DNA from: Oscillospiraceae bacterium
GTDB taxonomy: Bacteria > Bacillota > Clostridia > Oscillospirales > Oscillospiraceae
NCBI GenBank assembly: GCA_902802045.1
Contig: CADCKQ010000006.1
Span: forward strand, 1-64,000
Length of the DNA stretch: 64,000 nt
Direction: 5' to 3'
Within the stretch, counting starts at the first letter, position 1; every line of letters starts with the position of its first letter. Both the position numbers and the translations under genes were made by a program. Below, one piece after another: positions 31,575 through 50,975 of the stretch. The notes under the pieces are model-generated. The model made no database searches, had not been told where the DNA came from, and worked only from the letters and a program-made list of their open reading frames with translations.

Positions 31575-31575
31575 A

Positions 31576-32478: not shown

Positions 32479-32524
32479 AAGGCGGCTCTCTCAGATGTAT
32501 GAACATTCTGAGGAAAGCCGCCTT
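32479..32524 (-). promoter_or_regulatory. Intercistronic hairpin between binding protein and permease genes
   Basis: AAGGCGGCT/AGCCGCCTT with an inner CTCAGA/TCTGAG stem. There is no T-tract on the minus strand, so it is more likely a 3'-end stabiliser giving a high binding-protein to permease ratio than a full terminator. Confidence 0.6.
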
Positions 32525-32566
32525 TCGGTTTGATCCTTAAATGGATAAACCTGCGGGTCTCAAAAC

Positions 32567-33895
32567 TTATCCGAGGTCATTGGTCAGGCCGGCGACAAAG
32601 TCCTCGCCGTTAATGGCACAGCCATAAACCTGGGAAACATATTCAAGATAGGTGTTTGCAGGATCTGCACTCATAGCAGTGTCACCGAAGAGGACCATGC
32701 CGTCGGATGCAGAAACGATATCGGCAACAGCAGCAACAAGAGGCTTTACGGCGCTGGTATCGTAGTCAGGAGTCCATGCGGGCAGACCGGAACCTGCGAG
32801 GTAACCGTAGTGGCAAATAGCTTTACCGAGTTCGAATGCTGCAGATGCGGCGAGCTCGACATTCTTGGAATATGCGGAGACCGTGAGAGAGTCAGACGGG
32901 CCACCAATAACCTGGCCGTAGGTAGCGCGGTCAGCATTCATTACGGGGAAGAGGGCAGCCTGAGGCTGGAAGAGTTCCTGGTCATTGATCTCACCGCAGT
33001 TCCAGGAGCCGTTCTGATAGAAAGCATACTGGCCGGCTATGAAGTTTGCTTTGACCTGGTCATTTCCGATAGCAGTGCCGTTGGGATCAAAGTATCCCTT
33101 ATTGACCATATCCTGGAAATTGTTGACTGCAACAGCGATATCCGGATCATTCCATGTTGCCTCGCCTTTGAAGATCGCGTTCATGTCTTCAAAACCAATG
33201 GTTTTCTCAATAATGGGCTCAAGATACTCGGTGACACACCATGTGTCTGCAGAAGTAGCTGCGCATCCGAAGGGGATCTTTCCTGCTGCAACGAGTGCAT
33301 CGCAGCAGGCAGTGAGATCTTCGTATGTCTCGGGAACATGATCCCAACCGACTTCAGCAAGCATATCCATATTGGCAAAGAGTGTGACTATATTGTATGT
33401 CAGAGGAACAGCATAGTGTCCGCCGTCATATGTGGAGTTCTGGAGCATGACTTCAGGCAGATCAGCTGCAAACGCCTTATAGGCGTCGTCAAGGCAGTAG
33501 ATGTTACCAGCTTCAACGAAGTCGCCAAGGAACGCACCGGACCAGGTGAAGAAAATGTCAGGCAGAGTCTCAGGATCGCTCATGGCAGCTTTGATCTTTG
33601 TCTTGTAAGAGTTGTTCTCAAATGCTTCCCACTCGATCTTGATATCGGGGTGATTTGCTTCAAATTCTGCTATAGCCTGTTCATAAGCGGGACGGTTTGC
33701 GTCGCTTTCCGTTGCGATGCACCACAAGGTCAGAACAGTCTGATCTGCAGCGGGTTCTGCTGCAGGCTCTGCAGCGGGTTCTGCTGCGGGTTCTGCTGCC
33801 GGAGCAGCGGCCGGAGCCGGTGCTGCAGCCTGTCCGCAGGCGCACAGCGCAAATACCATTATGAGAGCTGTGAGCAATGCGATGAGTTTTTTCAT
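32567..33895 (-). CDS. Extracellular sugar-binding lipoprotein (CUT1)
   Basis: A 442-residue lipoprotein beginning MKKLIALLTALIMVFALCACGQ; the lipobox LCAC gives a lipidated cysteine at about residue 20. A low-complexity linker of alternating APA and PAAE units follows, then a family 1 solute-binding domain (LTLWCIATESDANRPAYEQA, PDIFFTWSGAF). The start has CAGGAGGAATTACA upstream. The neighbouring GH3 and GH94 enzymes suggest beta-glucooligosaccharides such as cellobiose as substrate. Confidence 0.92.
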   Translation of the reverse strand: MKKLIALLTALIMVFALCACGQAAAPAPAAAPAAEPAAEPAAEPAAEPAADQTVLTLWCIATESDANRPAYEQAIAEFEANHPDIKIEWEAFENNSYKTKIKAAMSDPETLPDIFFTWSGAFLGDFVEAGNIYCLDDAYKAFAADLPEVMLQNSTYDGGHYAVPLTYNIVTLFANMDMLAEVGWDHVPETYEDLTACCDALVAAGKIPFGCAATSADTWCVTEYLEPIIEKTIGFEDMNAIFKGEATWNDPDIAVAVNNFQDMVNKGYFDPNGTAIGNDQVKANFIAGQYAFYQNGSWNCGEINDQELFQPQAALFPVMNADRATYGQVIGGPSDSLTVSAYSKNVELAASAAFELGKAICHYGYLAGSGLPAWTPDYDTSAVKPLVAAVADIVSASDGMVLFGDTAMSADPANTYLEYVSQVYGCAINGEDFVAGLTNDLG

Positions 33896-33958
33896 TGTAA
33901 TTCCTCCTGTTTTCTTTCTGTGATAAAGATAAATATATATTTGCGGCAATGCCGCTTA

Positions 33959-34978
33959 TCACCCGAGCTGTGAGATATCCTTTACGGAAGCACCTTCCTG
34001 GATATGTCCCCTGACTATTTCCCTGTCAAGTATAACGCTTTTCGGTTTTTGTATCTGTTCAATAAGTCTTGCAGCCGATCTTCTGCCGAGTTCTGTAGTA
34101 TTCTGCACCCATGTCGTCAATTCGGGTGAAATGATTCGCGAGAGCGGAATACCGTCATATCCTGCAGCCGAAATATCATCCGGAATTCTGAGGCCCGACT
34201 CCCATACAGCATTAATGCCTCCTATACAGGAGTAGTCATCCGGGAATACTATGCAAGTCGGTCTGTCTTTTAATCCAAGCAGCTCTTTGGTTATCGAATA
34301 GCAGGTCTTGGGATCATGGAAGACTCCTTCCCTGACATATTCGTCCGGGATCTTAATCCCGTGTTTTTCGCAGGAGCGGTAGAACCCCGAAAGCCTGTTG
34401 ACCGTGACGCTTGTTTTTTCGCCGTGGATGAAGGCTATTTTTTTATGCCCCTTGCTGATAATGTAATCGGTAAGGGTCTCCATACCGCCCGTATTGTCCG
34501 AAATAATTGAAATATTGCCATTGAATATATGATCTATCGTTACAACCGGGATCTCTGAATTAACAAGCTCTATAATCTGAGGATCAGCAAAATCTGCAGA
34601 GGCGATTATCACCCCGTCCACGCCGCGGTAACGGCAATGCTGAAGATAAGATGTCTCGCGATTACCGATTCCCCGGTTTATGAATGTAATATCATATCCG
34701 TTACTCTCTGCCTCACTTCTGATGGCATCAAGAACTGTGGAGAAAAATTCATGTGCAAGCCCGCCATGCATCGGATCCAAAAACAAAACACCTAAATTGA
34801 ATGTCTTGTTTGTTTTAAGAGCTCTCGCTGCGGAATTGGCTGTATACCCGAGTCTCTCCGCGGTCTCCGCGATCTTCTGTCTGGTTTCCTCGCCTATATC
34901 CTGCTGTCCGTTCAGCGCTTTGCTGACTGTAGCGACCGAAACACCGCACTCGAGCGCAATGTCTTTCATGGATATCAC
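33959..34978 (-). CDS. LacI-family transcriptional repressor
   Basis: A 339-residue regulator with an N-terminal helix-turn-helix (MKDIALECGVSVATVSKALNG), hinge (NSAARALKTNK) and periplasmic-binding-like sensor domain. A GTG at 34976-34978 lies 9 bp from AGGAGG and adds three residues before MKDIA; the ATG at 34969 is 18 bp away, too far. It heads the operon with the binding protein and permeases. The palindrome TAAACGTTTA at 34998-35007, just upstream, and a related site at the GH94 promoter suggest autoregulation and control of both arms. Confidence 0.92.
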   Translation of the reverse strand: MISMKDIALECGVSVATVSKALNGQQDIGEETRQKIAETAERLGYTANSAARALKTNKTFNLGVLFLDPMHGGLAHEFFSTVLDAIRSEAESNGYDITFINRGIGNRETSYLQHCRYRGVDGVIIASADFADPQIIELVNSEIPVVTIDHIFNGNISIISDNTGGMETLTDYIISKGHKKIAFIHGEKTSVTVNRLSGFYRSCEKHGIKIPDEYVREGVFHDPKTCYSITKELLGLKDRPTCIVFPDDYSCIGGINAVWESGLRIPDDISAAGYDGIPLSRIISPELTTWVQNTTELGRRSAARLIEQIQKPKSVILDREIVRGHIQEGASVKDISQLG

Positions 34979-34997
34979 TTCAGCCGGCCTCCTCACT

Positions 34998-35007
34998 TAA
35001 ACGTTTA
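34998..35007. promoter_or_regulatory. LacI-type operator at the lacI promoter
   Basis: A perfect 10-bp palindrome TAAACGTTTA with a central CG, typical of LacI/GalR operators, lies between a probable promoter (TTGAAA-17-TAAATT on the minus strand) and the lacI start. Confidence 0.65.
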
Positions 35008-35230
35008 CGCAAGTCTAATTTAGCTTATTCCTCAATTTTTTTCAAGTATTTTATATTGGAAAATACAATTATTTTTTATTTTTAGTGAATTTGCACAAAT
35101 TGTGCCTGATATTTTTATGCAAAATAGACAATTCTTAAACCGATGTCTAATTATCATCGTTTAATTAGTATATTTTTTTCAGAATCTATCCAAAATCCTA
35201 TTGCTTTTTTCGGAATAATAGTTTAATCTT

Positions 35231-35259
35231 TTGACAAGTTATGTCCTTAATCGTTTAAG
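35231..35259 (+). promoter_or_regulatory. GH94 promoter with LacI-type operator
   Basis: TTGACA at 35231-35236 is a perfect -35 box; the region 17 bp on overlaps the near-palindrome CTTAATCGTTTAAG (35246-35259), which shares the central CG and flanks with the operator at 34998. A weaker relative, ATCGTTTAATTA, lies at about 35157-35168. Confidence 0.6.
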
Positions 35260-35276
35260 CTGCAGGGAGAATGATA

Positions 35277-37715
35277 ATGAAATTCGGCCATTTTGATGAT
35301 TTAAACAAAGAATACGTTATAACTGCCCCGGATACACCTCTTCCCTGGATCAATTACCTCGGAAATGAGGATTTCTTTACCATATTATCCAACACATGCG
35401 GAGGTTACAGCTTCTATCGTGACGCACGTCTGCGCCGTCTGACCCGTTACCGCTACAACAATTGCCCTCTGGATTCCGAAGGCTTTCATATCTATATTAA
35501 GGACGGAGATTTGATCTGGAATCCCGGCTGGCAGCCTGTTAAGACTCCGCTTGATTCTTACTGCTGCCGCCACGGTCTCGGATACTCGGTCATCTCCGGT
35601 GAAAAGAACGGCCTTTCTGCAAAACAGGAGTTTATCGTTCCTATGGGCAATAACTGCCTACTGATGCGTGTGACATGCGAGAATAAGAGCGGTGCTTACA
35701 AAAGCTTTTCTCTTTTTCCTTATTTGGAGTTTTGTCTTTGGGATGCTTTGGACGACTCCTCAAATTTCCAGAGAAATTATTCAACCGGTGAAGTTGAAGT
35801 CTCCGGCAACGCCATTTATCATAAGACTGAATACAGGGAGAGGCGCAATCACTATGCCGTTTTTTGGGCCAACCGTGATCCGGCAGGCTTTGACACTTCG
35901 AGAGATTCTTTCATAGGCACGTACGGCAGCCCTGCAGTTCCTGATGCTGTGATATCCGGATACTGCAGAAATTCTGTGGCTCACGGCTGGCAGCCGATAG
36001 CTGCTCAGCAGTTTGATATCACACTGGGTCCCGGTGAGACAGACAGTCTGATATTTGGCTTGGGATATATAGAAAACTCCGATGATGACAAATGGGAAGA
36101 ACCCGGAATAATTAATAAAACTCAGGCCAAGCAAATGATATCCGAATACGATTCAGTTGAAGCTTTCAGCCGTGCCTTCAATGATCTTCACGATTATTGG
36201 GAAAAGCTGCTTTCGAATTACCGTATCTCTTCTTCGGTTGAGAAGCTGGACCGTATGGTTAATATCTGGAATCAATATCAGTGCATGGTTACTTTTAACA
36301 TGAGCCGGTCTGCGAGCTATTTTGAAAGCGGTATGGGGCGCGGAATGGGATTTCGCGATTCCTGCCAGGATCTGTTCGGCTTTGTTCACATGATACCTGA
36401 GCGGGCCAGAGAGCGTATACTGGATATAGCATCCACCCAACTTCCGGACGGGAGTGCGTACCATCAGTACCAGCCTCTCACAAAGAAAGGAAATCTGGCT
36501 GTGGGGAGCGGCTTCAACGACGATCCTCTGTGGCTCATTGCAGGTACGGACGCATACCTCCGTGAGACGGGGGATTGGAGTATTCTCAACGAATCAGTCG
36601 ATTTTGACAATGACGCCTCGCTTGCGCAGCCCCTGATCGAGCACTTGCGTCGCAGTTTTTCTTTTACGGCATCACATCTCGGTCCGCACGGTCTTCCGCT
36701 GATAGGAAGAGCTGACTGGAACGATTGCCTTAATTTGAACTGTTTTTCCGAACATCCCGGCGAAAGCTTCCAGATCACGGGAGCGAATGAAGGACCTGTA
36801 GCTGAAAGTGTTTTTATTGCCGGAATGTTTGTAAAATACGGCAAGGCATGGGCTGATATTCTGCGCCATATGAAACTGGATTTAGAAGCAGCAGAAGCAG
36901 AAGCTGCTGTCTTAAGCATGGAAAAAACCGTTCTTGAGCACGGTTGGGACGGAGAATGGTTCAGAAGAGCCTATGACGCTTTCGGACATGTTGTCGGAGG
37001 CCGTGACTGTGACGAGGGGCAGATCTTCCTGGAGCCTCAGGGAATGTGCGTAATGGCAGAAATAGGAAAAGACAGCGGAGAAGCGGAAAAAGCTCTGGAG
37101 AGCGTTCAAAAATATCTTGATACAAAATACGGAGTCGTTTTACTCACCCCTGCTTATACACGTTATCGTCTGGAACTTGGTGAGATAAGCAGCTATCCTC
37201 CCGGATATAAGGAAAATGCCGGAATATTCTGCCATAACAACCCTTGGATCACATGCGCCGAAACAGTTCTGGGGCACGGCAACAGGGCATTTGAAACATA
37301 TTCCCGCATTTGCCCGTCTTATACTGAAGATATCAGCGATATCCATCGTACCGAACCGTATGTATACAGTCAGATGATTGCCGGTAAAGACGCTGCCAGT
37401 TTCGGAGAAGCAAAAAACAGCTGGCTTACAGGAACTGCCGCCTGGACTTTTCTCAGTATCAGCCAGGCAATTCTTGGAATTAAGCCTACATTGGACGGGC
37501 TCCTGATCGATCCCTGCATTCCTGCGGACTGCAAAGGATATAGCGTATCGCGCAGATACAGAGGAGCAGTATACAATATAACTGTTAAAAATCCTGCTTC
37601 AGTTGAGCATGGCATAAAGGAAATCCGCTTAAACGGCGATATCTGCCATAACAATCTTTTACCGCTCCTTCCCTCAGGTGAAACCGCCGACGTGCAGGTC
37701 ATCATGGGCGCGTGA
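35277..37715 (+). CDS. Cellobiose phosphorylase (GH94)
   Basis: An 812-residue cytoplasmic GH94 enzyme. [29 protein letters not shown]-type start, [16 protein letters not shown], the catalytic-acid block RADWNDCLN and the C-terminal ([16 protein letters not shown]) match cellobiose phosphorylases, which convert cellobiose and phosphate to glucose-1-phosphate and glucose. The ATG at 35277 has GGGAG 7 bp upstream; the ATG at 35271 is too close. It is divergent from the ABC operon, and both are probably under the same LacI regulator. Other beta-glucan disaccharides remain possible. Confidence 0.92.
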
Positions 37716-37941: not shown

Positions 37942-38802
37942 TCAGCCTTTGACGGCGCCAGAGGTCATGCCGGAGATGACCTGCTCCTGGAATATAATAT
38001 ATCCGAGAATCGAAGGCACTATCGAAACAACGATCGCAGCATACATGGAGACATAGTCTGTGGAAAACTGATTTGTGAAGTAACGTATGCCGACCTGAAT
38101 GGTACGGAGCTTCTCGGAAGAAACGATCAGATTCGCGAAAACGAATTCGTTCCAGCAGGTCAGGAACTCAAATGTCGCGGCGGTCACTATTCCCGTACGG
38201 GACAGAGGCAGTATCACATGGAAGAATCTGCCCATAAAACCGGCTCCGTCTATATACGCAGCCTCTTCGATCTCCATAGGAATGGAGTCCATAAGACCTT
38301 TTATAAGGAACGTGGACATGGGTATGCCTATTGCAGAGTACAGAAGGATCAGTCCCCCGTAAGTGTTGTAAAGACCGAGCCTGTTGATGATAACGAAGTA
38401 CGGAACCATCAGCGCGTTTAATGGTATGAGAATGCCCGTGGTAAAAAGCGTATAGTAGTTGTCTCTGCCTTTAAAGCGGAATCTGGACATGCAGTACGCG
38501 CTGAGTGAAGCTACGAGGACGTTAAACAGCGTTGCGGCAATGCCCACGAACACCGAGTTCAGAAGCATTCTGCCGAGCCCCGCGACAGTGAGGGCATTTG
38601 TATAGTTCTGCCACTGAGGTGTCTTGGGAAGTGAGAACGGGTTTCCCGCCAGGAATTCACCGTTTGTCTTCAACGATGACATGAACAGCCAGAAAAGCGG
38701 GAAAAGAGCATATACCGTAAAGAATACTATAAGTATCCAGCGGATTATCTGGAGCAAGAGTTCCTTTCCGGTGAGCTTTGCATGAACTTTATTCGTGTTC
38801 AT
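37942..38802 (-). CDS. CUT1 ABC permease (MalG-like) of the sulfoquinovose locus
   Basis: A 286-residue membrane protein with six predicted segments and the EAA loop (EEAAYIDGAGFMGRFFHVILPLSRTG). The start overlaps the upstream permease stop by 4 bp. It is the last gene of the arm that begins with the isomerase at 45222, so the importer may bring in sulfoquinovosyl glycerol or a related glycoside. Confidence 0.9.
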   Translation of the reverse strand: MNTNKVHAKLTGKELLLQIIRWILIVFFTVYALFPLFWLFMSSLKTNGEFLAGNPFSLPKTPQWQNYTNALTVAGLGRMLLNSVFVGIAATLFNVLVASLSAYCMSRFRFKGRDNYYTLFTTGILIPLNALMVPYFVIINRLGLYNTYGGLILLYSAIGIPMSTFLIKGLMDSIPMEIEEAAYIDGAGFMGRFFHVILPLSRTGIVTAATFEFLTCWNEFVFANLIVSSEKLRTIQVGIRYFTNQFSTDYVSMYAAIVVSIVPSILGYIIFQEQVISGMTSGAVKG

Positions 38803-39707
38803 TTCATGCCCCCCTTTCTCTTCTTCACCTGCCTCGTCTCCTGCTTTCCGTTAAAGAGGAGTCTCAGCGAGACAATAAAAATTATTCCGACAATGATCAG
38901 GATCGCTGCCGAGGCCGAGGCCATCCCGTAGTTGGGTTCCTGCAGTTTTTTATACATATACAGGACAATGGTGGACGTCGTATTCGCTGGCTGCCCGTTT
39001 GTAAGCATATACACCTGCTCAAACTGTCTCAAGCCCATGACCGAGGCGAGAGTTACGCAGGTCGCGAGCGAGGTCTTTCTTATCAGCGGGATCGTGATAT
39101 GTATGGCCTGCTGAAATTCTGTCGCGCCATCTATCGTTGCGGCTTCATAGTATGATTCGTCTATAGTCGTGATATCGGCCATCATGATGACCATATAATA
39201 ACCAATATAGAAGACCCAATAGATAAGCACTGCGGGAAAGGCTGTCTCTATAGTACCGAGCCAGTCTCTGGCAAGGTCGCCCCTTCCGAAGAGAGTAAGG
39301 AGTCCGTTTAAAAGACCCGTGTTGGCATTGTATATAGCTCTCCACAGCATGGCAAGCGCGATGCCGGATATGACCTGCGGAAGGAAATACACCGTTCTGA
39401 AAAACTTCCAGCCTTTTGGTTTGCGCGAGAGGATAATAGCCATGACCATGGCGATGGGCACCTGTATAAAACCCGCGACCAGTGCCCAGATAACATTATT
39501 CAGTACGGATCTTAAAAATGCCTTATCTTTGAACAAAAGAGCGAAATTTCTGATTCCTCTGAACTCCGGGTCCGTTATTCCGTTCCATTTGAAGAAGGAA
39601 ACGACGACGACATATACGACCGGTATCACGAAGAACAGAAGCATCATGATAAGGGCGGGAGCCATAAAGGCTATCAGAGGACCTTTATCGTTTCGGGTAA
39701 GCCTCAA
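38799..39707 (-). CDS. CUT1 ABC permease (MalF-like) of the sulfoquinovose locus
   Basis: A 302-residue permease with six segments and the EAA motif (YEAATIDGATEFQQAIHITIPLIRK). The start codon is TTG at 39705-39707, supported by GGAGG 7 bp upstream and the absence of a nearby ATG. It lies after the binding-protein gene, with an intercistronic hairpin between them. Confidence 0.9.
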   Translation of the reverse strand: MRLTRNDKGPLIAFMAPALIMMLLFFVIPVVYVVVVSFFKWNGITDPEFRGIRNFALLFKDKAFLRSVLNNVIWALVAGFIQVPIAMVMAIILSRKPKGWKFFRTVYFLPQVISGIALAMLWRAIYNANTGLLNGLLTLFGRGDLARDWLGTIETAFPAVLIYWVFYIGYYMVIMMADITTIDESYYEAATIDGATEFQQAIHITIPLIRKTSLATCVTLASVMGLRQFEQVYMLTNGQPANTTSTIVLYMYKKLQEPNYGMASASAAILIIVGIIFIVSLRLLFNGKQETRQVKKRKGGMK

Positions 39708-39759
39708 GATATCACCTCCGTTATTGGAAACTCAAAAGCAGCGTCAGAATTTGAAATAA

Positions 39760-39782
39760 GGGAGCGGAATTATTCCGCTCCC
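39760..39782 (-). promoter_or_regulatory. Intercistronic hairpin between binding protein and permease genes
   Basis: GGGAGCGGAA/TTCCGCTCCC, a perfect 10-bp stem with a 3-nt loop and no T-tract, 20 bp after the binding-protein stop. It is at the same position as the hairpin in the other ABC operon (32479-32524). Confidence 0.6.
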
Positions 39783-39801
39783 TGTGAGAAAATGCGGTGT
39801 G

Positions 39802-41130
39802 TTATGCTGCGTTGTCTATTGCAGTCTGGAGCTGGTCCACAAAGCCCTGTGCGTCGACCTGGCCGAGCACCAGAGCAGAGACTGCTGCGGGGAATGCGCT
39901 TTCATAAGCGGGGCCGAAGTTCGCGTCTACAGCCAGAACCGTGAAAGCCGCGTCCTTCTTTATTTCCGCGAATTTCTGGGCAATAACGGTCGTATCCTCA
40001 GACGGCTCGTAGTTTACAAAGAACATCGAGCCTGCGGAAGCGGACCACGTCTGCATACGGTCGGGATCCGTGATGTACTGGAGGAATTTTACAACCGCAG
40101 CTTCCTTGGCGGGATCGTCCTGCTTAGCAGCGAGGATGAAGCTCTGAACTTTGGTTACAAGCCCGCCCTGGCCTTTGCCGCCGACCCATTCGGGGTTGGC
40201 CGCCACGTCACAGACATCAGCGAGAAGGACTCCGTCCTTTGCGTTGTCTTCCTTGTAGAGGTTGCCGATCCACCAGGGTCCGTTGAGGTAGAGTGCCGTA
40301 TCCTGGGCGATCCAGTGACCGTTCACATCGCCTGCACCTGCAGAGATTGCTCCGTCGAAGGTGTAATCATACATTCTCTTAAGAACGTCTGCTGCTTCAA
40401 CGAAAGCGGGGTCGGAGAGGCCGTTTTCAAAAGCTTCCTTGCCACCGATTGCCTGAACAAGAGCCGAGTACCACAGCATCGAGGTCCAGGCGTTCTCTCC
40501 CGCCATCTGGCCGACTGCGTTGTAGCCTGCCGCTTTGATGTCGTCGAACATCTCAAACATCTCGTCCCAGTTTGCGGGGAAGGTCTCCCATCCTGCTTCC
40601 TTGAGGATCTCGACGTTGTAAACTATCGGGAAGATCGCGCTTTCAAAGGGAATAACAGCGGTTACGCCGTCATAGGTATAGCTGTCGAACGTGCCAGTTG
40701 CGAAAGTATCTCTCCAGCCGCCGTCAAGGTAAGGCGTGAAGTCCATGAATTTGCCGGACGCGGTATAGAGCTCTACGTCTGCAGCGGTATCCATCGTGCA
40801 GATATCGGGAACTTCGCCTGCCGTTACAAGAGTTCTTATCTTGTCGCGGTATGCCTGGTAGTCTGTCTGCTCTTCAATAACGACTTTGATCTGTCCTTCA
40901 TTTTCCTTGTTGAAGGAATCTACCATCTCTGCAAAATATGCAGCTTTCGAGTCTGTGCCGACCCAGATGCAGGGGAAGTTGATCGTTATCTCTTTTGCTG
41001 CCTCAGCGGGAGCTGCTTCCTGCGCCGCGGGAGCTGCTTCCTGTGCCGCAGGAGCTGCTGCGGACTGGCCGCAGGCTGCCAGAGCGAAGATCATCGCAAG
41101 AGCGAGAATAAGTGCGAGGAATTTCTTCAT
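39802..41130 (-). CDS. Sugar-binding lipoprotein, candidate sulfoquinovoside receptor
   Basis: A 442-residue lipoprotein with signal MKKFLALILALAMIFALAACG (lipobox LAAC, Cys at residue 20), an AAPAAQE linker and a family 1 solute-binding domain (CIWVGTDSKAAYFAEMVDSFNKE, ALYLNGPWWIGNLY). Its promoter region contains TTTAATTAAA (41196-41205), a motif repeated at the transketolase promoter. Placement next to a GH31 sulfoquinovosidase makes a sulfoquinovosyl glycoside the best guess for the ligand. The sequence alone does not prove it. Confidence 0.88.
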   Translation of the reverse strand: MKKFLALILALAMIFALAACGQSAAAPAAQEAAPAAQEAAPAEAAKEITINFPCIWVGTDSKAAYFAEMVDSFNKENEGQIKVVIEEQTDYQAYRDKIRTLVTAGEVPDICTMDTAADVELYTASGKFMDFTPYLDGGWRDTFATGTFDSYTYDGVTAVIPFESAIFPIVYNVEILKEAGWETFPANWDEMFEMFDDIKAAGYNAVGQMAGENAWTSMLWYSALVQAIGGKEAFENGLSDPAFVEAADVLKRMYDYTFDGAISAGAGDVNGHWIAQDTALYLNGPWWIGNLYKEDNAKDGVLLADVCDVAANPEWVGGKGQGGLVTKVQSFILAAKQDDPAKEAAVVKFLQYITDPDRMQTWSASAGSMFFVNYEPSEDTTVIAQKFAEIKKDAAFTVLAVDANFGPAYESAFPAAVSALVLGQVDAQGFVDQLQTAIDNAA

Positions 41131-41349: not shown

Positions 41350-43233
41350 TCAATTGAAATCGGATGCTATTTGTTCAAACAGTTCTTTGAATGCTGATTC
41401 TTTTCTATAAAAAACCGGTGTTTTGCCCAAGGGAGCCTTGATTCTGATATTTCCCGAAGCGAAGCTTTCTCCGCTCCAGAGATACACCCATTCCCCTTCC
41501 GGAAGCCATAGTGTTCTCTCATTCGCTCCCTCCCTTACGACAGGCGCGACAAGCATATCGTCTCCGAGCAGATAGGAGTAATTGTCCCTCTCCCAGGCTC
41601 TGCTGTCCTCCGAAGCGAAGAAGAGCGGGCGCATGACGGGGACCCCCAGTTCGGAGTTTATCATTACGCATTCCCGAATGTATGGCAGCAGCGCGGTATG
41701 AAGCTTTGAAAGCCTGCCTGCCTTTTTCATAGTATCTTCATCGCTGTAGACCTGGAAATTGCTCTCGGGACGGTTGCCTTCATGGGTGCGCATGATAGGG
41801 GTAAAGGCTGCGAACTCAAGCCACCTCAGAAGGAGTTCTTTCGAGCGTCGGAGGCCGAAAAGCGAGGTGTAGCCGCCCGCGTCGGAGCCGTGAAGGCCGA
41901 AGCCGCTCATTCCCGCCGTAAGGGCTGCGGTGATCACCGAGGGCAGACCGTCGTCGTCGCTCCAGTCGACGCACTGGTCTCCCGCCCAAAGAAATGTCGA
42001 ATACTTTCCGCTGCCGGAAAAGCCGGAGCGCATAAAGAACACGCAGTCACCCAAGAGACCGGCTTCCTCCACCGCCTCCCTGTTGCATTTTGCCCAGAGA
42101 AACGGCCACAGGTTGTGGACCTCAAGACCTGTCCTTCCCCCGGCGCAGACTGCATCCGCAGGAAGATACTCTCCGAAATCCGCCATCCAGCCCTTGAATC
42201 CCATGCCTGCAAGGTTTTCTTTTATGACATTTTTATACCAGGCGAAGGCCTCTTCTGAGCAGAGATCAACCACTCCGCAATCGAACTCGCCGAAATCAAA
42301 AAGATAGTCTTCCCCGGCGGCGTTTTTTACAAAAAATCCGTTTTTCTTTGCCTCATTGAAAAGTGCTCCGCCTTCGACAAGATAGGGATTTATATAGCCA
42401 AGCCATCTTGTGGCGGGATCTGAGGCTATAAGAGTGTCAAGGCCGGGGTACATTTCTTTGTTCCATTTCCAGTCCCACTGGAGACGTTTCCCGAAGGAAG
42501 TGACCCGCTTTCCTTCCCAGTCCTGGATCCACACGGCCGAAACGTCCATTCCTTCGCTCCTGCAATTTTGAAGGAGTTTTGTTACTCTTTCCGTTCCCCC
42601 CTGAACTCCGAGCCAGACGCCTTCCATTGCCCAATCGGGAAGCCGGGGCTGGCGTCCGAGAAGCCCGGTGAGAGAAATAAGCAGCTCCCTGTACGAATCC
42701 GCAAAGCCGAAGACGAACTCGGCTCTGTTTGCCCAGACACATACCTCATGGTAATCGCTGCTTCTGAAGTCGAGCTCGGAGTATTCGGAGTTCATCAGGT
42801 GGAAGAAGTATTTCCCGGAAGAGACAAAGGTTGGCTGGGGGAAGAACGTGGTGTGGTAATCCCCTCCCCCTCCGTCAGATTCATTTGAAAGGCGTGTGAT
42901 CTCGGTTAAGGGATTGCGTCCGACTCCCTGCTCGCGGGTCCATATCGGAAAGAGCCTTCCTCTGAGATCGAGGCAGGAAAACTGCTCCCCGCCTCCGGTA
43001 ACACGTTCTGAAGGTTCTGCCGGTATCCGTATCCATATTCTGTTTATGCTCTTATCCCTGCATGAAAGACTGATTCTTGTGAGTCCTTTATCTTCTGATA
43101 CAGCAACACTTATATCATCGTTACCCGCTTCTTTGCGAAACAGTATTTTATCGGAGATATTGAAATTTCCCCGATACATTGAAATGTTTTCTTTTCCTCT
43201 TCCGATGTAATATCTGATTTCAGATATGTCCAT
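41350..43233 (-). CDS. yihQ: Sulfoquinovosidase (GH31, YihQ-like)
   Basis: A 627-residue GH31 enzyme, cytoplasmic, with no signal peptide. It hydrolyses alpha-sulfoquinovosides such as sulfoquinovosyl glycerol. Compared from memory with E. coli YihQ, the nucleophile is Asp352 (GWMADFGEYLP) and the acid/base Asp419 (WAGDQCVDWS). The five residues that recognise the sulfonate sugar in YihQ (Gln262, Gln288, Arg301, Trp304, Tyr508) are all found at a constant offset: Gln211, Gln237, Arg250, Trp253, Tyr455. This separates it from alpha-glucosidases and xylosidases. The gene follows a DUF624 gene by 15 bp and leads toward an ABC importer. Confidence 0.92.
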   Translation of the reverse strand: MDISEIRYYIGRGKENISMYRGNFNISDKILFRKEAGNDDISVAVSEDKGLTRISLSCRDKSINRIWIRIPAEPSERVTGGGEQFSCLDLRGRLFPIWTREQGVGRNPLTEITRLSNESDGGGGDYHTTFFPQPTFVSSGKYFFHLMNSEYSELDFRSSDYHEVCVWANRAEFVFGFADSYRELLISLTGLLGRQPRLPDWAMEGVWLGVQGGTERVTKLLQNCRSEGMDVSAVWIQDWEGKRVTSFGKRLQWDWKWNKEMYPGLDTLIASDPATRWLGYINPYLVEGGALFNEAKKNGFFVKNAAGEDYLFDFGEFDCGVVDLCSEEAFAWYKNVIKENLAGMGFKGWMADFGEYLPADAVCAGGRTGLEVHNLWPFLWAKCNREAVEEAGLLGDCVFFMRSGFSGSGKYSTFLWAGDQCVDWSDDDGLPSVITAALTAGMSGFGLHGSDAGGYTSLFGLRRSKELLLRWLEFAAFTPIMRTHEGNRPESNFQVYSDEDTMKKAGRLSKLHTALLPYIRECVMINSELGVPVMRPLFFASEDSRAWERDNYSYLLGDDMLVAPVVREGANERTLWLPEGEWVYLWSGESFASGNIRIKAPLGKTPVFYRKESAFKELFEQIASDFN

Positions 43234-43248: not shown

Positions 43249-43875
43249 TTATTCGTTATACCATTTGTCGTCATTTGTATCATCAATGATATCCGTTAGT
43301 TCCTTAAGCCCGGGCTCTATAAGGAAGCTGATGATAATGCAGACAGGTCCCGGCAGTATCGGCAGCAGATATGGCACAAGAAATGCGATAGACGCCGTAA
43401 GAGCCGCCAAAAGAATACAGACTATTGTCTGAGCTATATGTCTTATGCTCATATACAGAGCTGTTTTCCATATCTGCCCAAACCTCAGCGCAATTCTCGA
43501 GATTAAAGGAAACAGCCATGGCAACAGGACAAGAGCGGGAATAGCAAATATTATCGCCACCGCAGAAGACGGTTCGCTGCTTCCCCGCATCTGGCCAAGG
43601 GCAAAAGCATTGGCGATTCCTAACGCGACATATAAAAGAATACACAAATGACATGCCGTCGCCTGCTTGAAATTGGAAGCAAAAGAGGAGAAGAAGCTCT
43701 TTGTCGTTCTTCCCCTTTCATGCCTTATGCATTTGACGACGGTGTAGTAAAAGGCACAGCACGAAGCCCCCGCCGTTATAACAGGCAGGCAGAGGAGGAT
43801 CCAGAGGATCCCCGCCCAGAGCAGATCGATCACTCTGGTCGCGGCTTCATATATTTTCAGGCCTTTTCCCTTCAT
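43249..43875 (-). CDS. DUF624/YesL-family membrane protein
   Basis: A 208-residue membrane protein with about five hydrophobic segments, starting MKGKGLKIYEAATRVIDLLWAG, a family hallmark region, and a short acidic C-terminus. YesL-type proteins accompany CUT1 sugar transport operons in Firmicutes; their function is not established. Here it sits between the isomerase (6 bp) and the sulfoquinovosidase (15 bp), so it belongs to the sulfosugar operon. Confidence 0.8.
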   Translation of the reverse strand: MKGKGLKIYEAATRVIDLLWAGILWILLCLPVITAGASCCAFYYTVVKCIRHERGRTTKSFFSSFASNFKQATACHLCILLYVALGIANAFALGQMRGSSEPSSAVAIIFAIPALVLLPWLFPLISRIALRFGQIWKTALYMSIRHIAQTIVCILLAALTASIAFLVPYLLPILPGPVCIIISFLIEPGLKELTDIIDDTNDDKWYNE

Positions 43876-43881: not shown

Positions 43882-45222
43882 TCAATAAGCGTATACTTCA
43901 AACCCCATCATAAGAGCCAGAGCCTCAAGTTCTTTCGCGAAATGCCCTTTCATTACGACGAAGTGTGGCTCAAACCCGTTCAGTATGCTGTCTTCAACTA
44001 TATCGCGGCTCGGATTTTCCGTTTTCACGACGATTGATGTTCCGATAAACTGCTTCGGTTTGTCGAGAGCTTCACCCTCAGCAATGAAGAAGCGGAATGT
44101 CCCGTCGGGCTGTCTGCCGATACGGAAGATCGTAGCCTCAGGGAAGGCCTCGCAACCGAAGTCCATGGCCGGGCCTATTTTACGGTTCGGATGAACTCCG
44201 ACAACGGCTCCGGTATCTTTTCTTGCAAGGCTGCAGGCTCCGGCTCCGCAATGCCAGTACGTTATGCTGCTCTCTTTCTCGTCGAGGGAGACCGGATCTC
44301 CGAAGAAGACCGGTTCTCCGGACAGCTGCATTCCTATCCACATGGAGAGGGCTCCGTATATGTCCGCTTCACAGGCAGCAGCAACTCCTTGATCATTAAG
44401 CATGCTCAGAACCGTACAGACCGGCGTTCCATAGGCTGTAAAGAAATCCGGCCAGCATCTGGATGCAAGTGCTCCTATACCATGGCTTTTCACGAATTCA
44501 GTATATGCTCTCATAAGTCTTGAGTGATCTGCCACATTCTTAGCGGGTGTCTTTTCAAGACCGCAGGTAACCGATGCCGTCTTATCCGTGAATTCTTTGC
44601 ATTCTTCGTCTGTATAGGATTTTGCCATATCTATAAGTTCTCTTGCCTCAGCAGACTCGAGCTCTACACCGAAAGTGTTCATAAGTTCGCTGTCAAGCGC
44701 CCTGCCGAATCCGAAGCCCTGGGGAGTAAGGCCTATTGCTGCCATTCTGAGCGATTTCATAGCCTTCTTGAGCTTTGCTGCCGAAAGGTACGCCCTGATT
44801 GCTGAAATAACGCTGTCTTCCTCGGGCGCTCCGAAGCACCACATAAAAGGCCTGTCGTTGAAAGCTCTCAGGGCATTTGCCGCACTGTATGCGCCTGTAA
44901 GCGAATTGGACCTGAGTCTTCCGCCGTCAATTACCGGTTCTCTGAGTGTCCAAAGCAGCATCGGAACATTAAAGGTTCTCAGCACTTCGGACATGTATGC
45001 TCCGTTGGCAAACGTTATGTTCTGAAAAACAATAAGATCCGGAGCCTTGTCTTTAAGATATTCCCTCAGTTCTTCGACGGAGAGCAGTATCTTCTCGGGA
45101 CAGGCAATGCCTTCATCCGCCGATTTTAATGTCTTTACGCTTCTCTCAAACTGGTCCTGTGCCGTCTCCATATGGTATGTACCGACTCCTACAGGAACAT
45201 AAACACACTGAAATCCGTTCAT
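43882..45222 (-). CDS. Fucose/arabinose isomerase-like protein, candidate sulfoquinovose isomerase
   Basis: A 446-residue protein related to L-fucose/L-arabinose isomerases (COG2407 type). Visible are ALASRCWPDFFTAYGTPVC, MLNDQGVAAACEADIYGALSMW and HCGAGACSL, blocks that hold the metal-binding acid and His positions in the family. It is the first gene of the leftward arm, divergent from the transketolase operon. In sulfoglycolysis the sugar must first become sulfofructose, and no other hexose isomerase is present, so this is the best candidate. The family identification is fair; the substrate is inferred from context. Confidence 0.75.
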   Translation of the reverse strand: MNGFQCVYVPVGVGTYHMETAQDQFERSVKTLKSADEGIACPEKILLSVEELREYLKDKAPDLIVFQNITFANGAYMSEVLRTFNVPMLLWTLREPVIDGGRLRSNSLTGAYSAANALRAFNDRPFMWCFGAPEEDSVISAIRAYLSAAKLKKAMKSLRMAAIGLTPQGFGFGRALDSELMNTFGVELESAEARELIDMAKSYTDEECKEFTDKTASVTCGLEKTPAKNVADHSRLMRAYTEFVKSHGIGALASRCWPDFFTAYGTPVCTVLSMLNDQGVAAACEADIYGALSMWIGMQLSGEPVFFGDPVSLDEKESSITYWHCGAGACSLARKDTGAVVGVHPNRKIGPAMDFGCEAFPEATIFRIGRQPDGTFRFFIAEGEALDKPKQFIGTSIVVKTENPSRDIVEDSILNGFEPHFVVMKGHFAKELEALALMMGFEVYAY

Positions 45223-45427: not shown

Positions 45428-46252
45428 TTGAATACTGATCTCAAAGAAGTATGCAAAGATATCCGCTGCGGAATCCTGACCGCGATCGGACATCTCGGAG
45501 TAGGCCACATAGGCGGCTGCCTTTCAATAGTAGAGTATCTCGCCGTTCTCTATTTCGACGAGATGAACATTGACCCTGAAAACCCCAGAATGCAGGGCAG
45601 GGACAGATTCGTCTGCTCCAAAGGTCATGCCGGCCCCGCCGTCTACGCAACTCTTGCGGAGCGCGGCTATTTCCCCAAGGAGGATCTTCTGACTTTAAAC
45701 CAAGGCGGAACCCATCTTCCCAGCCACTGTGATATGAATCTTACGACCGGAATAGATATGACTGCAGGTTCACTCGGCCAGGGCATTTCCTGCGCAGTTG
45801 GCGCCGCACTCGGTTCCAAGATAGAAAACGACGGAGCAACGGTATACGCCATCGTCGGGGACGGAGAAAGCCAGGAGGGACAGGTCTGGGAAGCTGCAAT
45901 GTTTGCCGCGTCCAAGAAACTCGATAATCTTATCGTTGCCACCGACTACAATAAGCTCCAGATAGACGGAACAGTTGAAGAGGTCAACGGGATCGCGCCT
46001 CTCGACAAAAAGTGGGAAGCTTTCGGCTGGAATGTCATTAATGTTGAAAACGGTAACGATGTTTATCAGGTCAAGGCTGCAGTTGACAAGGCAAAATCAA
46101 ATCGAGGCAGCGGAAAGCCGACAATGATCATTCTGAATACGAAGAAGGGCTGCGGCGTCAAATGGATCGAAGACTTGGGAACCGGCAACCACAATACAAA
46201 TGTTACTGAAGAACAGGCTGCAGCTGCTATAGCAGAGATAAGGGGGAACTGA
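45428..46252 (+). CDS. sqwG: Transketolase N-terminal subunit (candidate sulfofructose transketolase)
   Basis: A 274-residue TPP-binding half of a split transketolase: GHLGVGHIGG, TAGSLGQGISCAVGAALG, and GDGESQEGQVWEAAMFAA to NKLQIDG, the TPP/metal motif. The start is TTG at 45428, 11 bp after AGGAGG. Split transketolases occur in ordinary pentose metabolism, but this pair heads an operon facing a sulfoquinovosidase operon. In the sulfo-TK pathway (SqwGH) the enzyme transfers a C2 unit from sulfofructose to glyceraldehyde-3-phosphate, giving sulfoerythrose and xylulose-5-phosphate, and acts again on sulfoerythrulose to release sulfoacetaldehyde. Confidence 0.82.
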   Translation: MNTDLKEVCKDIRCGILTAIGHLGVGHIGGCLSIVEYLAVLYFDEMNIDPENPRMQGRDRFVCSKGHAGPAVYATLAERGYFPKEDLLTLNQGGTHLPSHCDMNLTTGIDMTAGSLGQGISCAVGAALGSKIENDGATVYAIVGDGESQEGQVWEAAMFAASKKLDNLIVATDYNKLQIDGTVEEVNGIAPLDKKWEAFGWNVINVENGNDVYQVKAAVDKAKSNRGSGKPTMIILNTKKGCGVKWIEDLGTGNHNTNVTEEQAAAAIAEIRGN

Positions 46253-46255: not shown

Positions 46256-47182
46256 ATGGAAATGAGAAAAGCATATGCCGAAGTCATGTCCGAGCTAATG
46301 ACAGAAGACAGGCATGTAGTTATCCTTGACGCAGACCTTGCGAAAGCAAGCGGCACACGGAATCTGTATGAGAGCTTCCCGAACCAGATGTTCGACTGCG
46401 GAGTCGCGGAACAGAATATGGCCTCGATCGCTGCAGGGCTTGCAAGCTACGGTTTCAAACCGTACATAGAGAGCTTCACTCCTTTTGCTACCAGACGCAT
46501 CTGCGATCAGGTCGCCATCTCTATTGCCTATGCGAAAAACAATGTCAAGATAGTCGGAACAGACCCCGGTATCTCTGCAGAGCTCAACGGAGCCACCCAT
46601 ATGAGTATGGAAGATATCGGCGTCATGCGTTCGATTCCAGGCATGGTTATTTTTGAACCGGTCGACGAGGTGCAGCTCAGAGCAGCTTTGCCCGTTATCA
46701 ACGATTACAACGGCGTTGTCTATATACGTCTTTTCCGCAAAGAGCGTCCGCAGGTATTTGAAGAAAGCTATAAGTTCGACCTCTTTAAGGCTGACTTGCT
46801 TAAAGAGGGCAAAGATCTTTCGATCTTTGTCTCCGGTCTTCAGACAGCAGAAGTTCTGGAAGCCGCAAAAAACGAGCTTCTTGCGGAAGGCATCGACGCT
46901 GAAGTTATAAATATCCACACCATCAAGCCGATTGACAGAGAGACGGTAACAGCCTCCGCAAGAAAGACCGGAGCTGTACTTACAGTTGAAAACCACAATG
47001 TTATAGGCGGACTTCACAGCGCAGTTCTCGAGGCCCTCGAAGCTGAAAAAATACCTGCTCTCGCGGTAGGCATTCAGGACAGGTTCGGTGAAGTCGGTAA
47101 ACTCCCTTATCTCACCAAGGCATTGGGGCTTACCAAAGAAAACGTCATAGAGACGGCAAAAAAAGCAGTATCGCTAAAGTAA
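46256..47182 (+). CDS. sqwH: Transketolase C-terminal subunit (candidate sulfofructose transketolase)
   Basis: A 308-residue partner of the preceding protein with the pyrimidine-binding domain (FDCGVAEQNMASIAAGLA, catalytic Glu; GTDPGISAELNGATHMSMEDIGVMRSIP) and the C-terminal domain (SGLQTAEVLEAAKNEL, VENHNVIGGLHSAV). It starts 3 bp after the N-subunit stop with AGGGGG upstream. Together the two form one active transketolase. Assignment to the sulfo-TK route rests on the operon. Confidence 0.82.
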   Translation: MEMRKAYAEVMSELMTEDRHVVILDADLAKASGTRNLYESFPNQMFDCGVAEQNMASIAAGLASYGFKPYIESFTPFATRRICDQVAISIAYAKNNVKIVGTDPGISAELNGATHMSMEDIGVMRSIPGMVIFEPVDEVQLRAALPVINDYNGVVYIRLFRKERPQVFEESYKFDLFKADLLKEGKDLSIFVSGLQTAEVLEAAKNELLAEGIDAEVINIHTIKPIDRETVTASARKTGAVLTVENHNVIGGLHSAVLEALEAEKIPALAVGIQDRFGEVGKLPYLTKALGLTKENVIETAKKAVSLK

Positions 47183-47264: not shown

Positions 47265-47738
47265 ATGAAAATAGCAATAGGAAGCGACAAATCAGGCTTC
47301 GCTGCCAAGGAAGCCATAAAAGCATATCTTACAGAGGCGGGTATCGAATTCGATGATCTCGGAACAACTGATCTCAATGACGTACATCCCTACTACAGAG
47401 TTGCGTCAGAAGTGGCACCCAAGGTTCAGGACGGCACATATGAAAAGGCTGTTCTGATCTGTGGAACAGGCGCTGGAATGAGCGTTGTTTCAAATAAGTA
47501 TAAAGGTGTCTATGCAGTCGCATGCGAAGGTGTATATTCCGCAAAGATGGCCAGAGCTATAAATAACGCTAATATCCTATGCATGGGCGGCTGGATAGTC
47601 GGCCCTGAGATGGCGATTGAGATGGTCAAGACTTTTTTGACTACCGACTGGTGTCAGGATCTGGAGGATTGGAGAGCGGAGAACATGCATAAGTTCGCTG
47701 CTCAGGTCGATGCAATAGAGGAAAAGATCTATGGTTGA
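47265..47738 (+). CDS. sqwI: RpiB/LacAB-family isomerase, candidate sulfoerythrose isomerase
   Basis: A 157-residue protein of the ribose-5-phosphate isomerase B family: IAIGSDKSGFAAKEAIKAYL, CGTGAGMSVVSNKYKGVYA (catalytic Cys), YSAKMARAINNANILCMGGWIVG. Relative to standard RpiB, GIGMSIAANK is changed to GAGMSVVSNK and the phosphate-binding end differs, as expected if the substrate is a sulfo-tetrose. In the sulfo-TK route SqwI converts 4-deoxy-4-sulfoerythrose to sulfoerythrulose. The gene overlaps the next by 8 bp. An ordinary pentose-phosphate isomerase is the alternative. Confidence 0.75.
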   Translation: MKIAIGSDKSGFAAKEAIKAYLTEAGIEFDDLGTTDLNDVHPYYRVASEVAPKVQDGTYEKAVLICGTGAGMSVVSNKYKGVYAVACEGVYSAKMARAINNANILCMGGWIVGPEMAIEMVKTFLTTDWCQDLEDWRAENMHKFAAQVDAIEEKIYG

Positions 47739-48834
47739 TTCATTTGTCTATTCCCAGCCTGTCAAAATCTACTTTGGAGCGGAAAGCTTTAAAAATCTTG
47801 GAGCGATTCTCGAAGAGCAGGGTCTGCAGAGGGCGGTACTCGTATGCGGACGCCATTTCGGACCTGAAGCGGAAGCGATGAAAGATTCGGATCCCCGATT
47901 TGTTGGAGTTTTCTCGGGTGTTGAGCAAAATCCCAGGCTGTCCGGAGTTGAAACGGTAACCGCGCTTGCACGCGAAACGGGTGCTGACTGCATTGTCGGA
48001 ATAGGCGGCGGCAGTTCGCTTGATACGGCGAAATTCGCGGCAGCTGTAGCTCCGAATGAAGGTAGAGCCTTGGATTATTACAGAGGCGACAGAGCATTTA
48101 ACGCCCACAGCCGTCTTGCAGTAATCGCGGTCCCGACAACTGCTGGGACCGGAAGCGAGGTCACGCAGGTATCTGTCGTAAGCCACGAGACTGAGAAGAA
48201 AACCATCAACAATCCGGCTTTTATGCCGAGAGCTGCTATTGTAGACCCGGTTCTTTCATCTACTGTTCCTCCCCGCACAACAATGAACACTGGCCTTGAC
48301 GCCATGGCGCACGCCCTTGAAGGGTATTGGAGCATAAATCACCAGCCGATAACGGATACTATTGCCAAGGCTGCAGTCAAACTCGTTCTTGAAAATCTTG
48401 AAAAGGCATATAAAGACGGCAGCGATATGGAGGCCAGATCTGCAATGGCTTATGCCGCTCTTCTCGGAGGCATGTCTTTCGCGCTGCCGAAGACTGCCGC
48501 CTGCCATGCCTGCAGTTATCCTCTCTCCGAGGTGTATCATCTGCCCCATGGTGAGGCATGTGCTTTTACTCTCGACAGCTTTGTCAAGATCAATGCTGAT
48601 GATCGCCTTGAGGAACTTGCCCATGCAGTCGGGCTCAGAGATACCGAAGAGCTTGCCGCGAAGATCAGAGAACTTAAGGCTCTCGCAGGGCTCAGATCCA
48701 GGATTTCCGATCTCGGAGAAAATGTCGACCCCGGACTTCTTGCCGAGGCTTGCTCTGTTCATCCTCTGATGAACAACAATCCCGTTAAATTGTCTGTTGC
48801 AGAACTGAAAGAGATGTTTGACGCGCTCAGATGA
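47731..48834 (+). CDS. sqwF: Iron-containing alcohol dehydrogenase, candidate sulfoacetaldehyde reductase
   Basis: A 367-residue group III metal-dependent dehydrogenase with NAD-binding GIGGGSSLDTAK and PTTAGTGSEVTQ, and metal ligands in GLDAMAHALEG, HACSYPLSEVYHLPHGEA. Such enzymes reduce aldehydes with NADH; SarD-type members act on sulfoacetaldehyde. Its position after the transketolase and isomerase genes predicts reduction of sulfoacetaldehyde to isethionate, which also recycles NAD+. The next gene overlaps by 4 bp. Confidence 0.78.
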   Translation: MVDSFVYSQPVKIYFGAESFKNLGAILEEQGLQRAVLVCGRHFGPEAEAMKDSDPRFVGVFSGVEQNPRLSGVETVTALARETGADCIVGIGGGSSLDTAKFAAAVAPNEGRALDYYRGDRAFNAHSRLAVIAVPTTAGTGSEVTQVSVVSHETEKKTINNPAFMPRAAIVDPVLSSTVPPRTTMNTGLDAMAHALEGYWSINHQPITDTIAKAAVKLVLENLEKAYKDGSDMEARSAMAYAALLGGMSFALPKTAACHACSYPLSEVYHLPHGEACAFTLDSFVKINADDRLEELAHAVGLRDTEELAAKIRELKALAGLRSRISDLGENVDPGLLAEACSVHPLMNNNPVKLSVAELKEMFDALR

Positions 48835-49724
48835 GTGCAAATACTAAAAATACCATGATGATCGCCGGGATGGTGATCTCATGGTCAATATACTACGCTG
48901 TTTCTAAAGTAGTGGTCGGGGCAACAGGTTCTGCTTTTCTGGCAGGCTTCCTGCTCCGGTCAGCGGCTTTGGTCTTTCTGACTCTGCAGCTTGCTGCAGA
49001 TAAAAATCTGAAGGAAGTATTCAGACAGGGCAAAACAGCATATATTCTTCTGATTATAGGCGTATTCGGTTTCCTCCTCGATATGTTTGCAAACCTTGGA
49101 TATGCAAAAGGCTCTCTCAGTACCGGAACCGCGCTGCTGAAGACAGATGTCCTTATGGTCAACCTTGCAAGTGTCATCATATACAAGAAAAAGCTCTATT
49201 TGAGCGACTGGATCGGCACATTTATTATGCTGTTCGGAGTCCTGCTTGTACTCGGGATCAGCTTCGGCAGTATTACGTTCAACATTACCGATCTGTTTTT
49301 CATCTTAAGTGCAGTCTGTGTTTCTGCCAACGCATTCATAATCAAGTCCGCACAGGAAAAATACGGCGCAAGTACAGACATGATCTCTTACTATAACAAT
49401 TTCACCGTGCTGGTGCTGTTTTGCATTGCTTCAGCAGTACTGGGTGATTTTGAAGCCCTGAAAACTGTAAATATCCCTTATTTCTGGCCCCTTGTCATTC
49501 TCGGCGGTCTCGGCCAGACCGGAATATATTTCTTCTACTATAGGAATCTGAAAATACATGAAGTATGGCAGGTCAAGCTTTATCTGCTGCTGATGCCTGT
49601 TGTAAGTCTTTTTATAGGCATCTTTTTCCTTGGAGAAGAGATGACGCCCCTCAAAATTGCTGGTATTGCAACAGTGCTCCTCGGCGCTTCCGTTATAGTA
49701 CTCAGAGACAGAATCAACAAATAA
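48831..49724 (+). CDS. EamA/DMT-family transporter, candidate isethionate exporter
   Basis: A 297-residue protein with ten predicted membrane segments in two EamA repeats. Translation is coupled to the dehydrogenase gene (ATGA). No substrate can be read from the sequence. An organism that makes isethionate as an end product needs to export it, and this transporter lies in the same operon, so sulfonate export is a reasonable guess. Confidence 0.75.
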   Translation: MSANTKNTMMIAGMVISWSIYYAVSKVVVGATGSAFLAGFLLRSAALVFLTLQLAADKNLKEVFRQGKTAYILLIIGVFGFLLDMFANLGYAKGSLSTGTALLKTDVLMVNLASVIIYKKKLYLSDWIGTFIMLFGVLLVLGISFGSITFNITDLFFILSAVCVSANAFIIKSAQEKYGASTDMISYYNNFTVLVLFCIASAVLGDFEALKTVNIPYFWPLVILGGLGQTGIYFFYYRNLKIHEVWQVKLYLLLMPVVSLFIGIFFLGEEMTPLKIAGIATVLLGASVIVLRDRINK

Positions 49725-49757: not shown

Positions 49758-50975
49758 ATGGCTAAACAGGGCGACAATATGACAGATGTGAAACGTGCCA
49801 ACAGGAGTGCGGTTCTGCGTGTTCTGCATGAAAACGGCGATGTTTCGCGAAAAAAGCTGGCAGCCTACATAGGCCTTACTCCGGCAGCCATAACTAAAAT
49901 AACAGGTGAGATGATAGAAGAAGGTCTTCTGCGTGAAGGAGAAGCCGTTTTCAGCGGCGGTGCCGGCAGGCGTGAGATACTCCTGAAGACTGACCCTTTT
50001 TCCCGCTTTGCACTCGGTATTTTCATAAATAAGGGGCTCGCTGTCCTTTCTGCTGTAAACTTGGAAGGAACCGTTGTATTTTCCGAAAATGCGGTTCTGC
50101 CCTCCAATGCTCCTGCAAACGAGACCATAACCACGCTCTGCAATCTGCTTCTTGATCTCAGCGATCAGAATGGTATCCCGCGGGATAAGATCATCGGTAC
50201 AGGTCTTGCTTTGAGAGGACAGGTATCCGATAACGGGAGGATACTCAAAAACAGTTTCGGTGCTCTTAACGAGTATAATTATCCGATAGCAGATGAAGTC
50301 GAGAAACTAACCGGTTTAAAGGTGATTTCCGATAACAATGTCAGATCCCTTTTCTCTGCCCACTTGTTTTTCTCCAAGGATAAAGAAATCAGTTCTCAAT
50401 TTTTTCTCAGATGTGAATACGGCATAGGTGCCGCTCTTTCAGTCGATTTCAGAATCTGGCACGGAGGAAGCGCACAATGCAGCGAGATAGGGCATATCCC
50501 AGTAATAAGAAAAGGCGGAAAGCCCTGTTCCTGCGGTAAGAGCGGGTGTCTTGAGACCGTGGCCTCTCCAAATGCTATCCTTGAAGAAGCTAAAGCAGCA
50601 TTTTCTGAGGATAATACTCCGCTGCTGTATAAACGTATGCTTGGCAGAAGCATTGATGAGATGCGCCTTCAGGACGTTCTGGATTCCGCTGCAGGAGGGG
50701 ACAGCACAACAGCATCAATAGTAGGCAAAGCTGTAACCGCACTCGCCCAAGCTCTAAAATCCGTTATATATATCATCGACCCGGAAAAGATAGTGCTCTA
50801 CGGTCATTTATTTGAGAATGCTTACTTCCTGGATCATTTTATAGCTGAAATGCGGGAAGGCGTCGACAGCGGTCATGATGTAAGTGTAGAAAAGAGCCGC
50901 TGCAACCTCAAACTCGAAGATGCAGCGGCGGGACTTCTGGTTATTCAGAAATTTATAGATGAGGGCGGCCTTTAA
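49758..50975 (+). CDS. ROK-family transcriptional regulator (NagC/XylR type)
   Basis: A 405-residue protein with an N-terminal winged helix (VSRKKLAAYIGLTPAAITKITGEMIEEGLL) and a ROK sugar-kinase-like domain with the zinc motif CSCGKSGCLET near residue 260. The DNA-binding domain marks it as a regulator and not a kinase. It ends the transketolase operon, 33 bp after the transporter, with ribosome site GGAGG. Likely ligands are sulfoquinovose or a pathway intermediate, and candidate sites are the TTTAATTAAA palindromes. Its 3' end overlaps the convergent GPH gene by 4 bp. Confidence 0.88.
   Translation: MAKQGDNMTDVKRANRSAVLRVLHENGDVSRKKLAAYIGLTPAAITKITGEMIEEGLLREGEAVFSGGAGRREILLKTDPFSRFALGIFINKGLAVLSAVNLEGTVVFSENAVLPSNAPANETITTLCNLLLDLSDQNGIPRDKIIGTGLALRGQVSDNGRILKNSFGALNEYNYPIADEVEKLTGLKVISDNNVRSLFSAHLFFSKDKEISSQFFLRCEYGIGAALSVDFRIWHGGSAQCSEIGHIPVIRKGGKPCSCGKSGCLETVASPNAILEEAKAAFSEDNTPLLYKRMLGRSIDEMRLQDVLDSAAGGDSTTASIVGKAVTALAQALKSVIYIIDPEKIVLYGHLFENAYFLDHFIAEMREGVDSGHDVSVEKSRCNLKLEDAAAGLLVIQKFIDEGGL

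Follow-up and report, generated by a model that had tools for sequence, protein, structure and literature searches.

The minus-strand open reading frame at positions 41350–43233 of the window (the whole 64,000-nucleotide stretch of DNA analysed here) very probably encodes a retaining GH31 alpha-sulfoquinovosidase (SQase), and it lies beside a complete gene set for the isethionate-forming variant of the sulfo-transketolase (sulfo-TK) pathway. This assignment from sequence comparison is built on the homology, residue identities, clade, fold matches and gene set observed for the window enzyme. Both the enzyme and its locus are of an already known type.

Identity of the GH31 enzyme

The YihQ/SftG-like gene reads from 43233 to 41350 as 627 codons with zero internal stops. 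It was aligned globally with the full-length YihQ of E. coli MG1655 (678 aa), which gave 322 identities over 625 aligned residues (51.5%). In this alignment, Q262, Q288, R301 and W304 of YihQ correspond to Gln211 (codon at 42601–42603, minus strand, as for all codons below), Gln237 (42523–42525), Arg250 (42484–42486) and Trp253 (42475–42477), at an offset of 51. D405, D472 and Y508 correspond to Asp352 (42178–42180), Asp419 (41977–41979) and Tyr455 (41869–41871), at an offset of 53, the shift being caused by a single 2-residue gap after YihQ position 321. An HMMER alignment of the reading frame to PDB 5aed gave the same register. The initial annotation had placed the five QQRWY residues, the two catalytic Asp and both offsets in the same way, and the pairwise alignment puts no other residues at these positions. 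It had also taken the constant offset as a sign that the match is not due to chance. The homology is indeed far beyond chance (phmmer against YihQ, E 6e-212), but the offset is not independent evidence of this, because it follows from ~50% identity with few gaps and adds nothing beyond the overall homology.

The sulfonate site, generally (Q/K)(Q/E)RWY, thus reads QQRWY at 211/237/250/253/455, and the GH31 catalytic domain (PF01055, 158 bits) carries both catalytic Asp. Arg301, Trp304 and Tyr508 of YihQ are the residues that we take to be the sulfonate contacts. Judged from the sequences compared, most of the diagnostic weight of the motif lies in Arg301, because an SQase without both Gln exists and relatives without Arg301 keep both. 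The former is the Agrobacterium SQase (5ohy), which has KERWY rather than QQRWY, so that both Gln are dispensable for a sulfoquinovosidase. Glu316 (42286–42288), the counterpart of YihQ Glu369, was absent from the initial annotation's list and co-varies with Arg301.

The top PDB matches of the protein were all SQases, namely YihQ, BmSQase (8r56), Eubacterium rectale SftG (6pnr) and the Agrobacterium enzyme, with E-values of 6e-212 (YihQ) and 8e-212 (BmSQase), compared with 2e-55 for the GH31 group ranking next. The NCBI YihQ model PRK10426 scored 840 bits (cut-off 553). Maximum-likelihood analysis grouped the protein with its Oscillospiraceae relatives in one clade (100/100) nested within the Arg301 SQases, whose clade (100/96) includes the window protein, YihQ, BmSQase and the KERWY forms; an earlier tree with a distant outgroup was set aside since it joined long branches. 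A fold search with a predicted model returned only SQase chains as its first 23 matches (TM 0.84–0.86), while other GH31 proteins reached ~0.7. Model confidence was low exactly at the pocket (239–252, 418–445 and 450–462). Models of this enzyme and of a QQQWF protein served for fold matches only, as the pocket is too uncertain in both for contacts to be read from it. Clade, fold matches and model score support the reading of this enzyme, by sequence, as a sulfoquinovosidase.

The window enzyme shares with E. coli YihQ (5aed, 5aeg, 5oht) the fold, both catalytic Asp, the five sulfonate-site residues and Glu369, and with BmSQase and SftG the QQRWY motif and the fold. It differs from YihQ in its neighbourhood, which is sulfo-TK rather than sulfo-EMP, and likewise from SftG, whose organism uses the sulfo-transaldolase (sulfo-TAL) pathway (PMC11968277). 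A further difference from YihQ is an N-terminal domain ~50 residues shorter in the global alignment, in which YihQ residues 1–31, 61–70, 79–85 and 94–96 have no counterpart; the domain is also shorter than that of most relatives. This shortening might be read as decay or specialisation of an SQase fold in a strain living on free SQ. Such a history is highly unlikely, given that the N-terminus is the same, and the frame intact, in a 94%-identical sister, and that the catalytic and binding residues are complete. A GH31 alpha-glucosidase or alpha-xylosidase merely resembling YihQ, to which the alpha-glucosidase label still carried by PRK10426 would point, is scarcely credible, since every sulfonate-site residue is kept, non-SQase GH31 matches are ~400 bits or more weaker than SQases (HMMER against PDB), sulfoglycolysis genes stand in the locus, and the one other true GH31 of the genome (L001) is a separate dextranase/alpha-glucosidase-like protein. 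A motif QQRFF read in L001 is unreliable, as identity to the window enzyme is ~25% and gaps fall inside the motif. A third PF01055 match in the genome was rejected as a GH31 protein, being a GH36 alpha-galactosidase.

The sulfo-TK locus and its predicted pathway

The SQase gene is directly preceded, on its own strand, by genes for a DUF624 (MusI-like) membrane protein (43249–43875) and for SqvD/SftI, a FucI-like sulfoquinovose isomerase homologue (43882–45222; NF048012, E 2e-116, 389 bits, below the cut-off of 700). Divergent from these, on the plus strand, profile matches identified the N- and C-terminal transketolase halves SqwG (45428–46252) and SqwH (46256–47182) and the RpiB/LacAB-family isomerase SqwI (47265–47738). 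They are followed by an iron-type alcohol dehydrogenase, SqwF (47731–48834), which by position and family would be a sulfoacetaldehyde reductase, an EamA-family transporter (48831–49724) and a ROK-family regulator (49758–50975; profile match). SqvD, SqwGH, SqwI and SqwF together make up the gene set of the sulfo-TK isethionate variant. The EamA gene overlaps the end of SqwF, adjoins SqwF in relatives too, and is a candidate isethionate exporter gene; no TauE-type exporter is visible in the window locus. Downstream of the SQase gene, an ABC sugar importer is encoded on the minus strand (37942–41130; permeases at 37942–38802 and 38799–39707, binding protein at 39802–41130). It adjoins the SQase in relatives as well and is probably an importer of SQ or SQ-glycerol.

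On the far side of the locus, a GPH-family symporter gene (50972–52378, minus strand), whose homologues in relatives adjoin a Gln301 GH31 gene, is present without this partner. A beta-glucoside-type cluster with a GH3 enzyme, a second ABC importer, a LacI regulator and a GH94 phosphorylase adjoins the locus at 28563–37715. The intervals between SqvD and SqwG in 30 loci share no conserved palindromic operator.

A 94%-identical goat omasum MAG preserves the locus layout, as do more distant relatives, and on the basis of these relatives we infer Ca. Limivicinus as the source of the window. The sulfo-TK pathway with an isethionate ending is known from Clostridium sp. MSTE9 (PMC9594981), and rumen Ca. 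Limivicinus (Oscillospiraceae) has sulfo-TK loci that are transcribed during SQ degradation (PMC13219744). Rumen microcosms and Caproiciproducens KNHs216 have been reported to convert SQ to isethionate (PMC13219744). The loci of Clostridium sp. MSTE9, rumen Ca. Limivicinus, Caproiciproducens and Sphaerochaetaceae share SqvD, SqwGH, SqwI, SqwF and the isethionate variant with the window (PMC9594981, PMC13219744). Compared with these, the window has the EamA gene at the place expected for the exporter, and the DUF4867 (SqvB/SftX family) gene of its genome lies on another contig (G000:C1:366048-366656, L076); in several relatives this gene is inside the locus.

Published work on homologues suggests how the catalytic and transport steps would proceed. 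The substrate would most likely be alpha-sulfoquinovosyl glycerol derived from de-acylated plant sulfolipid and imported by the adjacent ABC transporter. In the SQase, Arg250, Trp253 and Tyr455 would hold the sulfonate, with Asp352 as the nucleophile and Asp419 as the acid/base. SqvD would isomerize the released sulfoquinovose to sulfofructose, which SqwGH would cut twice in two C2-unit transfers, SqwI acting between them. SqwF would then reduce sulfoacetaldehyde to isethionate for export, perhaps through the EamA protein.

A sister clade with Gln at position 301

The search for YihQ-like GH31 proteins covered 102 genomes of the window's genus, together with samples of its family, order and class. 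Among the close YihQ relatives aligned, 59 rows had QQRWY or KERWY, 36 had QQQWF and 10 had QQQWY, and both catalytic Asp were kept in all 105. The Gln301 forms (for example L006:15503-17497, plus strand, which shares a contig with an Arg301 enzyme at 9905-11896; also L046, L047, L050, L054, L055, L145-L154, L158-L164 and L167) occur in the same genus, family and order as the window. They retain both Gln and Trp304; position 301 is Gln in 46/46 and Arg in none, and Tyr508 is lost in 36 (QQQWF). The region around 301 aligns without gaps, as GKRVMWNW in the Arg type and GKQVWWNW in the Gln type. Residue 369 changes along with it: Arg301 is paired with Glu369 in 58 of 59 sequences and with Ala369 in one, whereas Gln301 is paired with Thr369 in 46/46. 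In the maximum-likelihood tree, all Gln301 forms grouped together (99/95), and their clade and the main Arg301 clade are sisters, which means that the change at 301 may have been one event and that the pairing counts are not independent. The only exception to the sister arrangement is the Arg301/Ala369 sequence L111, placed basally with weak support (89/59). As the two clades are sisters and this placement is weak, the change may have gone in either direction. More remote YihQ-like GH31 proteins from two families of the order (f87 and f92; L126-L144) vary in their sulfonate-site residues and often differ at the second catalytic Asp as well. No description of the Gln301 clade was found in the accessible part of the literature.

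By genomic context, the clade occurs among sulfoglycolytic gene sets, although some copies are unlinked. The QQQWY gene comes first in complete sulfo-TAL operons, followed by genes for transaldolase, a 3-sulfolactaldehyde-reductase-like protein, DUF4867, SqvD, a TauE exporter, a ROK regulator and a GPH symporter, and SqvD or transaldolase was present in 8/10 QQQWY stretches. The QQQWF gene stands beside SqvD/SqwGHI in 14/34 stretches, several of which are incomplete, and is directly adjoined by a GPH symporter gene in 22/34. Within the same genus, SqvD was found in all 46 genomes with an Arg301-type match, whether alone (33/33) or along with the Gln301 kind (13/13), and in 13/14 with only the Gln301 kind, compared with 4/39 without a YihQ-like match; three genomes with partial matches were excluded from these counts. 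The difference between Gln301-only and no-match genomes gave a Fisher p of 4e-8, a value that ignores kinship. SqwG is present in 14/14 Gln301-only genomes at 71–82% identity, and their SqvD and SqwG are as close to those of the window as are the homologues from Arg301 loci. In the stretch L155 (G552:C192), an ABC importer resembling that of the window lies between two QQQWF GH31 genes; a separate locus of this genome (L156) encodes a QQRWY enzyme along with SqvD, SqwGH and a transaldolase.

These 14 genomes bear directly on the initial annotation, according to which the motif is a firmer guide to the substrate class of the locus than gene order is. They retain sulfo-TK genes with Gln301 enzymes alone, so the gene order persists where the motif is missing, and the claim does not hold. 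As evidence for an SQase the motif is probably sufficient; on this comparison it is not necessary. The earlier interpretation was right for the window enzyme and overstated as a rule.

What the Gln301 enzymes may do is finely balanced. There is an even case that with them gut Clostridia possess a GH31 sulfoquinovosidase of a second kind, which has Gln301 and Thr369 in place of Arg301 and Glu369, often together with Phe508, and would bind the sulfonate by neutral hydrogen-bond donors. They would then provide the sole GH31 SQase of some sulfo-TK genomes and of several sulfo-TAL operons, and the window's QQRWY enzyme would be their Arg-type counterpart in the same genus. Operon position favours such an SQase with a remodelled neutral site. 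It is also plausible, if somewhat short of an even chance, that the clade consists of alpha-glycosidases for a non-sulfonated sugar that travel with SQ genes, acting for instance on an alpha-glucoside or alpha-galactoside that the linked GPH symporter imports. The complete absence of Arg301 and the frequent loss of Tyr508 would fit such a role, as would the 13 same-genus genomes carrying both GH31 kinds and the linkage of QQQWF genes to GPH symporters more than to SQ genes. It sits less easily with the QQQWY forms that head complete sulfo-TAL operons, with the sulfo-TK genes of the Gln301-only genomes and their closeness to those of Arg301 loci, and with the joint change at 301 and 369, which looks like the remodelling of one pocket. 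The GPH symporters were rejected as a substrate indicator, as they match YihO/YihP no better than other GPH transporters.

Natural variation of the sulfonate site, also in SQ-type gene clusters, is known from an NAD-dependent SQase family. That family is unrelated to GH31, and its contact is a backbone nitrogen. NAD-dependent SQases (SqgA) are rare in published rumen genomes, at 6/5578 (PMC13219744).

Implications for surveys of sulfolipid degradation

What the window enzyme contributes is one more member, with a short N-terminal domain, of an established enzyme class and pathway; otherwise it changes little. Counts of sulfolipid-degrading bacteria rest on the QQRWY motif and on YihQ homology, and the NCBI YihQ model also takes in the sister clade lacking Arg301: sequences of both kinds exceed its cut-off of 553, with scores of 611 and 803, and annotation therefore fails to tell the kinds apart. 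In the published rumen survey, some Ca. Limivicinus had two copies of yihQ, and most rumen amplicons fell on a long branch (PMC13219744). The rumen yihQ amplicon (1201F/1526R), if the primer names are nucleotide positions, spans only about codons 401–508, without residues 301 and 369. Activity of the Gln301 clade on SQ would make the accepted rule for sulfonate recognition incomplete; inactivity would mean that some yihQ counts contain non-SQases. Should the Gln301 enzymes indeed be SQases, part of the yihQ in rumen surveys could be of the Gln301 kind.
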